Source of the DNA: Desulfobulbaceae bacterium
GTDB taxonomy: Bacteria > Desulfobacterota > Desulfobulbia > Desulfobulbales > Desulfocapsaceae
DNA: 64,000 nt
Direction of reading: 5' to 3'
Assembly: GCA_031287565.1 (NCBI GenBank)
Contig: JAITSS010000046.1
Coordinates: 124,001-188,000, forward strand
This document shows, in pieces, positions 21,436-23,899 of this stretch. Position 1 is the stretch's first letter. The number at the start of each line of letters is the position of its first letter. A model generated the notes under the pieces. That model ran no database searches and was not told where the DNA came from. It worked only from the letters and a program-made list of their open reading frames with translations. The translations under genes and the position numbers were made by a program.

Positions 21436-22434
21436 ATGCAACGGAGAATGCGGAAATACGTGATGATCGTTCCCATTTGTGTCGTTTTGGGCCTTCTGGC
21501 TATCACGCCGATAAGGAGCACGGCGGAACTAAGTGTGCCGCTTGGCGGCAATCAGAAGGCCATCGGCAGCGCCAATTCGTCATCGGCCAAACAGGTTCAG
21601 GAACAGCAAAAGGCCAGCGCCCAAGCCGCTGCTGGCGCGGGCCTGGCCGGGAAAAACTTGAATTTTACTTCGACCAATATTGTGAAAGGCAATGTAAGCG
21701 CCGCTAACAGCGCCAAAGTGAATATCGGCGGGTTGGATTTGGGGGATGGGAGTGGCAACGTTGGCGGCAATGCGAAGAGCAAGGGCGATGGAACGACGGG
21801 TGGTGGTACTCAGATAAACAACACAATGGACGGCAGTGGCCTAAGTTTACCAGATGATAACCAGCTAGGGCAGGGCGAATCTACAGGGGATAGTTCCCCC
21901 ACTTTTGACTCTGAGAATGCGGAAGTATCCGATGGAAATGGACAAACGCCGACTAGCATAGATACAGCCTCCATTGCACCTGAGGGGAAAATTGATTCCT
22001 CTATTCTAGAGAGGATAGAAAAAATGAAATCTTATCCTACTAATGGGCAGGTTTGCGATCCGAACGGCTGGTATTGTGGTGAATGTGTTTCTTTTGTCAA
22101 AACTCTTGTCCCAGAACTTGCAGGAATTTCGTGGGGTAACGCTAATGGCATGTATAATAATGCCAGTGATGGAAAAATAGAAGAATGCCCTTCTTGCAAA
22201 GTAACTAAAGAACCAGTGATTGGCAGCGTATTTGTAACGAATGAAGGTGGATATGGTCACACCGGTATCGTGACTGATATAACAAAAAAACCAGATGGAT
22301 CATATTCCATTACTGTGGCTGATCAGAATTATGACGAAACAGGAAAGGTTCACACTGAACATACATTCACAGTTGATGGAAGATATAGATTTATTTCTAC
22401 AGATACAACTATGAGCTGGGGTGTGAATCAATAA
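21436..22434 (+). CDS. Secreted protein with NIGGL repeat module and C-terminal CHAP-like amidase domain
   Basis: N-terminal hydrophobic segment; LNFTSTNIVKGNVSAANSAKVNIGGLDLGDG; C-terminal NGWYCGECVSFVKTLVP...VIGSVFVTNEGGYGHTGIVTDI. Confidence 0.75.
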   Translation: MQRRMRKYVMIVPICVVLGLLAITPIRSTAELSVPLGGNQKAIGSANSSSAKQVQEQQKASAQAAAGAGLAGKNLNFTSTNIVKGNVSAANSAKVNIGGLDLGDGSGNVGGNAKSKGDGTTGGGTQINNTMDGSGLSLPDDNQLGQGESTGDSSPTFDSENAEVSDGNGQTPTSIDTASIAPEGKIDSSILERIEKMKSYPTNGQVCDPNGWYCGECVSFVKTLVPELAGISWGNANGMYNNASDGKIEECPSCKVTKEPVIGSVFVTNEGGYGHTGIVTDITKKPDGSYSITVADQNYDETGKVHTEHTFTVDGRYRFISTDTTMSWGVNQ

Positions 22435-22512
22435 ATGCAATCCAGCTAGATAAAGTACATAATCATAGTAATCGCCTACAATAGTCAGGCAATGCGCCAT
22501 TGTGTAATGCGC

Positions 22513-22586
22513 CGGTTCCGGCGGCTGATTTGGGCGGCGTTTATATGGAATTGCTGAAGAATCTGCCTAAAAGCGGCAGTAAATAA
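22513..22586 (+). pseudogene. Displaced 3' end of csgG-like gene
   Basis: 55 bp identical to 21192-21246 (CGGTTCCGGCGGCTGATTTGGGCGGCGTTTATATGGAATTGCTGAAGAATCTGCC), continuing in frame to its own TAA (PKSGSK*). Confidence 0.85.
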
Positions 22587-22600
22587 GAGGATTGCGGGGA

Positions 22601-23899
22601 ATGAATATGGAACGAATTGCTCTGAAATATCGCCTTGTTATTTGTTGCCTGCTCGGCCTTTTAAGCGCCCCGTCTGTGTATGGAGAGTTGTCTCTTCAGA
22701 TCGAAGCAGGCGCGGAATCCTCTGATGATGTGTCCATGTCAAATCAGGCGGGTAATGGCGGTGGCCTTGCCGGAAGCAAGGGCGGCGCGTCGTCAGGCAG
22801 CGGACTGTTTAAGAAAAATCTTAAGTTCACCTCGACCAATATTGTCAAAGGCAATGTAAGCGCCGCTGACAGCGCCAAAGTGAATATCGGCGGGTTGGAT
22901 GTGGGGGATGGGAAAAAGGATAATGCGAGTGGTGTAACTATGAACAACTCCTATAATGATGTCTCTCGACCCATTCAAAATATAAAAGTTCATGATAACG
23001 GGAATAATCAACTCGTTCAAAACGTAAAAGCTCAGGACATCGAAAATAATTGTATCCAACAAGGGAAAAGTAAAGTGGAATGTGCGCCAATGGTAGCGGA
23101 GGCGCTGTTTAATAATTGTCTTGTTCGAGGGAATAGTAGTGAGAGTGATTGTCGAACTATGGCTAATGGATATATAAATAGTCTAAAAGAAACAGAGGCT
23201 CTAAAACAGGACGCCGATGAAATGGCATGGCTCAATAGTCCTATAATGGATGTTACGGTAGGCACGCTGTCATACATTATGGACACTTTTTTTACACGTG
23301 ATGACGGGAAAAGCTGGCTAGATGTTTCTCCGTCAGAACTATGGAGAGATTCGTTGTATGTTTTATTCCATCCTGTAGAAAAGGTGGGAGACTTTGTAGA
23401 TGATCTTTCCCTAGGCGTGGTAAACTTTTCTTTTGATAGCGTTAGGCTTGGGGCCAATGGCATAAGCTCAGTTATTGGTACTAGCGAGTCAAAAATACAA
23501 AAAAATAATGAAATGCTTTTAAGTCAGAAAGAATACACAGCGGAATCTTTAGCAAAAATTTTTAAAAACATGGTATCTGGAAAAGATATAAGTGTTGGAA
23601 ATATATCCGATCTCGGTGTTGGCCTCTTTGAGTCGTTTAATGAATCTGTGCTAGAAAATAAATACGATAACAAGAAGATTGATTTATTGTATAGTAACGG
23701 AAAATCGGTGGTCGGTAAGGTAAACGATACAAAAGAAAAGATTGATTCTGTTCTTGAAGATGGAATTTTGGAATATGCAAATGATAAAGTAGAAAGATAT
23801 ATTAAAGATCGTTATGAACAGGCTGTATCCAATAAAAAAGAAGAGATGTATGAAAAATTAGAAGGGATCGCGCAAGAGAAAGGTTTGATTGCAAAATAG
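22601..23899 (+). CDS. Secreted protein with the same NIGGL repeat module and an unrelated AT-rich C-terminal domain
   Basis: Signal-like YRLVICCLLGLLSAPSVYG; LKFTSTNIVKGNVSAADSAKVNIGGLDVGDG; the remaining about 330 aa have no recognised motif. Confidence 0.7.
   Translation: MNMERIALKYRLVICCLLGLLSAPSVYGELSLQIEAGAESSDDVSMSNQAGNGGGLAGSKGGASSGSGLFKKNLKFTSTNIVKGNVSAADSAKVNIGGLDVGDGKKDNASGVTMNNSYNDVSRPIQNIKVHDNGNNQLVQNVKAQDIENNCIQQGKSKVECAPMVAEALFNNCLVRGNSSESDCRTMANGYINSLKETEALKQDADEMAWLNSPIMDVTVGTLSYIMDTFFTRDDGKSWLDVSPSELWRDSLYVLFHPVEKVGDFVDDLSLGVVNFSFDSVRLGANGISSVIGTSESKIQKNNEMLLSQKEYTAESLAKIFKNMVSGKDISVGNISDLGVGLFESFNESVLENKYDNKKIDLLYSNGKSVVGKVNDTKEKIDSVLEDGILEYANDKVERYIKDRYEQAVSNKKEEMYEKLEGIAQEKGLIAK

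Follow-up and report, generated by a model that had tools for sequence, protein, structure and literature searches.

Tandem tagged genes beside a CsgG-like lipoprotein gene suggest a polymorphic effector slot at a curli-like export locus

How do two neighboring genes come to share a nearly identical short segment while the proteins they encode end in unrelated domains? The question is raised by a 64,000-nucleotide stretch of Desulfobulbaceae DNA, here called the window (GenBank assembly GCA_031287565.1, contig JAITSS010000046.1, positions 124,001 to 188,000 of the forward strand), which comes from a draft genome of 2.7 Mb that is 86% complete. Two tandem genes, cargo 1 and cargo 2, lie there downstream of a gene for a CsgG-like outer-membrane lipoprotein, here called csgG, and each encodes a signal peptide, a linker, a short tag and a C-terminal domain of its own. 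An earlier note on the sequence had proposed that the pair resembles polymorphic toxin systems, in which a constant trafficking module is joined to a variable C-terminus. We consider it probable that the two genes occupy a polymorphic effector slot and that a curli-like export locus serves this slot. The whole locus lies on the plus strand, and the features of the pair are as follows.

21436-22434, plus strand: cargo 1, with signal peptide, linker, tag and a CHAP domain of peptidoglycan-amidase type
21670-21750, plus strand: tag copy 1, one apparent fiber-type repeat unit
22011-22434, plus strand: exchanged C-terminal region of cargo 1, with 38.9% guanine plus cytosine (GC)
22513-22567, plus strand: 55-base-pair (bp) copy of the csgG 3′ end (source 21192-21246), a putative scar, its reading frame open up to a stop codon near 22587
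22601-23899, plus strand: cargo 2, with signal peptide, linker, tag and a 325-amino-acid helical orphan domain
22832-22912, plus strand: tag copy 2
22921-23899, plus strand: exchanged C-terminal region of cargo 2, with 36.5% GC, for which searches found no relatives

Comparison of the two tag copies indicated that 78 of 81 bases are identical, exactly the three mismatches that had been reported, of which one is synonymous and two cause replacements (N/D and L/V) in a 27-amino-acid translation, STNIVKGNVSAA(N/D)SAKVNIGGLD(L/V)GDG, that is in frame in both genes. Codon-shuffled gene pairs, by comparison, reached at most 44 of 81 identities in 200 trials. Similarity at the DNA level extended over 101 bp (21651-21751 versus 22813-22913; 91% identity, E = 6e-37) and ended at the end of the tag, and a diverged signal peptide and linker were also common to both genes. 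Behind the tag the C-termini are unrelated, as the earlier note had stated: cargo 1 continues into a CHAP domain (Pfam E = 2.7e-11) in which the catalytic Cys, His and Asn positions are kept, and the 325-amino-acid region of cargo 2 matched no Pfam or NCBIfam family. Relatives of that helical region were sought in plasmids, phages and 395 genomes of the phylum, and none were found. Likewise, no other cargo-type copy of the tag was found in the bacterium's own genome.

We define the slot as the gene position directly after csgG and give homologous loci from other genomes or contigs L labels, each with its own numbering. The slot is filled in five genomes of one order, and the related loci that bear names belong to Desulfobulbaceae or Desulfocapsaceae, which are sulfur-cycle bacteria. 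In a sister species (L022), the same position encodes a signal peptide, linker and tag of the same type followed by an M23 peptidase (Pfam E = 1.3e-19). At 21535-21615, the CHAP gene's signal/linker stretch shares 78% DNA identity with that of the M23 gene, and thus the preferred reading is of one and the same gene that carries a different C-terminus in each case. In another genus (L023), the tag is followed by a phospholipase A2 (PLA2)-like domain in which the His-Asp/Cys motif is present, an assignment that lies below the cut-off (PLA2G12 E = 0.006); its C-terminus had no meaningful match among PDB sequences. A second species of that genus (L094) encodes a protein whose residues 1 to 119 are 74% identical to those of L023 and whose remaining 264 residues are unrelated and match no known family. 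Five C-termini carry the module (CHAP, helical, M23, PLA2-like and the L094 domain), with no similarity among them at E ≤ 0.5, and in every pairwise comparison made, similarity broke at the tag end or within a few residues of it. The earlier note had also named the finding that would undo its proposal, a module accompanied elsewhere by only one conserved C-terminus; across the relatives, an M23 peptidase, a PLA2-like domain and a domain without known family stand behind the same module, contrary to that condition. We conclude that the layout is one of polymorphic cargo, as several unrelated C-termini follow the same module in the same slot.

The comparison of L023 and L094 indicated how much DNA is exchanged. 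From csgG through the tag end, a span of 696 bp, the DNA of the two loci is 84% identical; it then shows no match for the next 1.68 and 1.50 kb, respectively, and is again 81% identical beyond a coupled gene, such that the exchanged stretch consists of the C-terminus plus one further gene. Each partner gene is coupled to its cargo gene by an ATGA overlap at the stop codon and opens with a signal-peptide-like sequence, but the two differ from one another (about 390 and 209 amino acids, no common family match, and stretches without DNA similarity). Judged from sequence, the pair appears to be a clean swap of C-terminus plus partner, as in toxin/immunity cassettes. This swap bears on an alternative in which the cargo proteins are fiber-bound extracellular enzymes rather than weapons, the tag decorates a matrix fiber for nutrition, matrix turnover or predation, and the C-termini track substrates. 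The CHAP, M23, lipase-like and PLA2-like domains are indeed all hydrolases and could feed on dead neighbors, but a nutritional enzyme needs no coupled signal-peptide partner that changes with its C-terminus, and we regard this alternative as unlikely, though the most serious of those weighed here.

Base composition set the C-termini apart from the rest of the locus. GC content behind the tag drops from 51-57% to 36-39% in all three genes of the window's genus (CHAP, helical and M23), and the C-terminal parts, including that of the M23 gene at 38%, stand at 36-39% versus 55-57% for the locus. Moreover, the 55-bp copy of the csgG 3′ end between the cargo genes is in frame and identical at 55 of 55 bases, and it appears to be a recombination scar: the start of the helical gene lies about 13 bp downstream of it, and the cargo of the other genus starts about 15 bp after csgG itself. 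On the simplest reading, from which we infer the order of events behind the two-gene arrangement, the slot was originally occupied by the helical gene, and a segment of csgG end and CHAP gene was inserted by recombination at the csgG 3′ end and pushed the helical gene downstream. The same csgG copy preceding the second gene would be expected if an ancestral gene and the csgG 3′ end had been duplicated in tandem and the C-termini had drifted without cassette exchange. Drift does not yield different enzyme folds, however, and the tag is 96% identical (three changes, one of them synonymous) while the C-termini are unrelated and AT-rich. Duplication with decay would also need intermediate C-termini and is contradicted by the sharp-bordered swap between species, and we consider it very improbable.

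The remaining features of the locus are as follows.

14569-18072, plus strand: outer-membrane-like protein
18222-19148, plus strand: fiber-like repeat protein 1, with signal peptide and about eight units of the form N-x-(V/I)-x-G-x-(V/I)-x-A-...-(V/I)-G-S/G-V
19346-20101, plus strand: fiber-like repeat protein 2, with signal peptide and, at its C-terminal end, the repeat type of protein 1
20105-21268, plus strand: CsgG/HfaB-like outer-membrane lipoprotein (csgG), exporter candidate, lipobox Cys21
24069-24605, plus strand: ZraP/Spy-like secreted protein, possibly accessory (ZraP E = 0.0065, below cut-off)
24681-25904, plus strand: another CsgG-like lipoprotein, with 57% identity to the one at 20105-21268
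25906-26613, plus strand: lipoprotein with a PG_binding_1 domain, possible envelope anchor

By sequence, the first CsgG-like protein matched Pfam CsgG below the cut-off (E = 0.0016) and NCBIfam HfaB as a distant relative only (E = 3.4e-5; 23 bits versus a cut-off of 300), and its lipobox cysteine is invariant among the CsgG-like proteins compared. A csgG profile had no match among PDB chains by sequence; CsgG was found through structure. In an AlphaFold2 model built from seven sequences, the best PDB matches were to CsgG (Foldseek E = 4.6e-8), which aligned with a VIA-align Z of 14.2 and a root mean square deviation of 4.5 over 173 residues, and the next family was PelC with a Z of 11.7. As the mean predicted local distance difference test score (pLDDT) of the model is 65.5, the assignment is made at the level of fold only, and at that level the lipoprotein upstream of the cargo genes is predicted to be CsgG-like. 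A search of plasmids for csgG found none.

Orthologs of fiber-like protein 1 were present at L022:1251-1721 and L023:5973-6686, and those of protein 2 were present at L022:1788-2525, L023:~6839-7363, L052:65-568 and, on the minus strand, L065:3005-3601. Neither fiber-like protein had any Pfam match at E ≤ 1, the curlin repeats (CsgA/B) included, and their repeats are of a different type. A profile made from these repeats only found the tags of relatives (E = 1e-6 and 5e-4) and placed both window tags among the top ten of 658 open reading frames, where each is individually weak (E = 0.4 and 1.1). Consistent with the earlier suggestion that the tag resembles a copy of the fiber repeat, it looks like one unit of the repeat type found in the upstream proteins.

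Taken together, these elements suggest how the effector slot could work. The constant machinery would be the CsgG-fold lipoprotein and the two fiber-type repeat proteins, and the gene directly after csgG would provide a Sec signal peptide and linker, one fiber-type repeat as the tag and an exchangeable C-terminal domain, which recombination would replace together with the coupled partner gene where there is one. The cargo would leave the cytoplasm by Sec, its tag region would be recognized by the CsgG-like pore, and it would cross unfolded to the surface, where the tag may pack subunit-like onto the repeat fiber and the docked cargo may present a wall- or membrane-degrading enzyme to neighboring cells. 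At loci that have a coupled periplasmic partner, the partner would guard the producer. We give about even chances to the more specific proposal that a CsgG-fold pathway has been repurposed as a polymorphic weapon, with a single repeat as secretion and docking tag, toxin domains swapped together with immunity genes, and enzymes interchangeable on a surface fiber.

The enzyme domains themselves allow another explanation, namely that wall-cutting cargo proteins are envelope-remodeling helpers that make openings in the peptidoglycan so that the exporter can assemble, and that their diversity is functional replacement. CHAP and M23 domains are common in housekeeping wall hydrolases, and the locus encodes a peptidoglycan-binding lipoprotein. 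Peptidoglycan is not an expected substrate of the PLA2-like and lipase-like domains that also occur in this slot, however, and at most of the CsgG-like loci inspected the position directly after csgG lacks such a gene: no tagged cargo was found there in betaproteobacterial loci (L054, L101-L103) or in most desulfobacterial ones (L024-L031, L033, L066-L068, L076-L079). We therefore consider a remodeling role quite improbable.

Several observations weigh against an effector slot. Only five of the 257 genomes searched in the order have a filled slot, and in the fifth (L065) it holds a lipase-like protein (Lipase_3 E = 0.00026; SA1320 E = 5.7e-10) without a recognizable tag. Among toxin-type activities, CHAP and M23 are clear, PLA2 and lipase are weak, with assignments below curated cut-offs, and two C-termini have no family; a single-sequence AlphaFold2 model of the helical domain (pLDDT 41) was too poor for a structure search. 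CsgG passes unfolded substrates, and a disulfide-containing CHAP domain or a zinc peptidase might fail to refold outside after such passage. Finally, small open reading frames around the CHAP, helical and M23 cargo genes included no convincing immunity gene, which also favors fiber-bound enzymes. The ZraP/Spy-like gene that follows the helical cargo was dismissed as an immunity candidate, since it is rich in GC and the genome's other CsgG locus has a similar gene beside it. An immunity gene may lie elsewhere, the cargo may be inactive while unfolded in the periplasm, or its role may be non-toxic.

By analogy, the closest precedent for a polymorphic effector slot would be MafA/MafB of Neisseria, included in the 2012 survey of polymorphic toxin systems by Zhang et al. 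(PMC3482391). In Neisseria, a lipoprotein gene is followed by a toxin with a signal peptide, a conserved N-terminal domain and a variable C-terminus and then by an immunity gene (PMC7738311; PMC3482391). MafA is needed for MafB secretion and is described as a dedicated oligomeric outer-membrane exporter, likened to CsgG by its authors (PMC7738311). The window shares the order of lipoprotein gene and signal-peptide protein with constant N-terminus and variable C-terminus, but its constant part is a fiber-type repeat of about 27 amino acids rather than MafB-N/DUF1020 (no such Pfam match at E ≤ 1), its exporter candidate matches CsgG by fold, fiber-type repeat proteins are encoded upstream, and immunity genes are missing at several loci. 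With polymorphic toxins generally, the locus shares a constant trafficking part and an exchangeable C-terminal domain, and at L023 and L094 a coupled gene changes along with that domain, as partner genes do in those systems; the survey's list of toxins includes PLA2 and alpha/beta-hydrolases. The text of the survey, as far as consulted, makes no mention of curli or CsgG (PMC3482391), and no description of a curli-like repeat tag with a CsgG-type pore as a trafficking mode was found. Curli/type VIII secretion (CsgA-CsgG) and the HfaABD holdfast anchor likewise place a CsgG-fold lipoprotein beside secreted repeat subunits, but the repeat here is not a curlin repeat by Pfam and the cargo includes enzymes (PMC6707917). 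Cdz of Caulobacter, in which surface-held proteins kill on contact, is an analogy only, as it consists of two small glycine-zipper proteins without the constant-tag/variable-enzyme layout (PMC5380434). The openly searchable literature, with subscription literature outside the search, held no description of CsgG-linked polymorphic cargo, and only MafA was relevant. Thus, polymorphic toxins whose N-terminal domain is specific to a lineage and which have a lipoprotein partner are already known; what is new, within the reach of these searches, is the curli-like trafficking module.

The accepted role of CsgG-type pores is the export of amyloids. If a one-repeat tag does send folded-domain enzymes through such a pore, the known substrates of the pathway would widen, polymorphic toxins would gain a new trafficking mode, and the slot would offer a test, set by nature, of the smallest signal that CsgG can recognize. 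Such a system would also back the suggestion from Neisseria MafA that CsgG-like lipoproteins can export toxins.

Further observations concern the surroundings of these loci. The window locus is flanked on both sides (13758-14051 and 26585-26830) by short repeats that translate as 'PAQAGIHSQ' or 'PACAGMT' and are probably elements like repetitive extragenic palindromes. The second CsgG-like locus of the same genome (L032:784-4413, contig C29) has its own repeat proteins and no enzyme cargo; the ZraP/Spy-like gene beside it (L032:784-1254) may encode a periplasmic chaperone of these exporters. In Desulfocapsa SZUA-1410 (L052), a transposase gene lies directly after csgG (L052:2038-3249), where cargo would be expected, and cargo is not visible. 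A VapBC-like toxin-antitoxin pair follows the M23 cargo (L022:5440-6095; PIN domain E = 2.6e-19), and a CRISPR-like repeat array, with CRREFLRRNGN repeated in translation, lies near the lipase-type locus (L065:8043-10864). A related CsgG-like locus type is widespread in the phylum (L024-L031, L066, L067, L076-L079) and has another kind of repeat (IAIGKGNKA..MGSV-type units), and we know of no description of it; its products include a short protein with 'LDDGI' repeats and, often, a 'NKKIMSTRAAKVLAERAIVESVYGLK' protein that is conserved. Caspase-like proteins, of CHAT/C14 type as judged by eye, are encoded near CsgG-like genes at L054:7008-13265 and L068:7477-8928.
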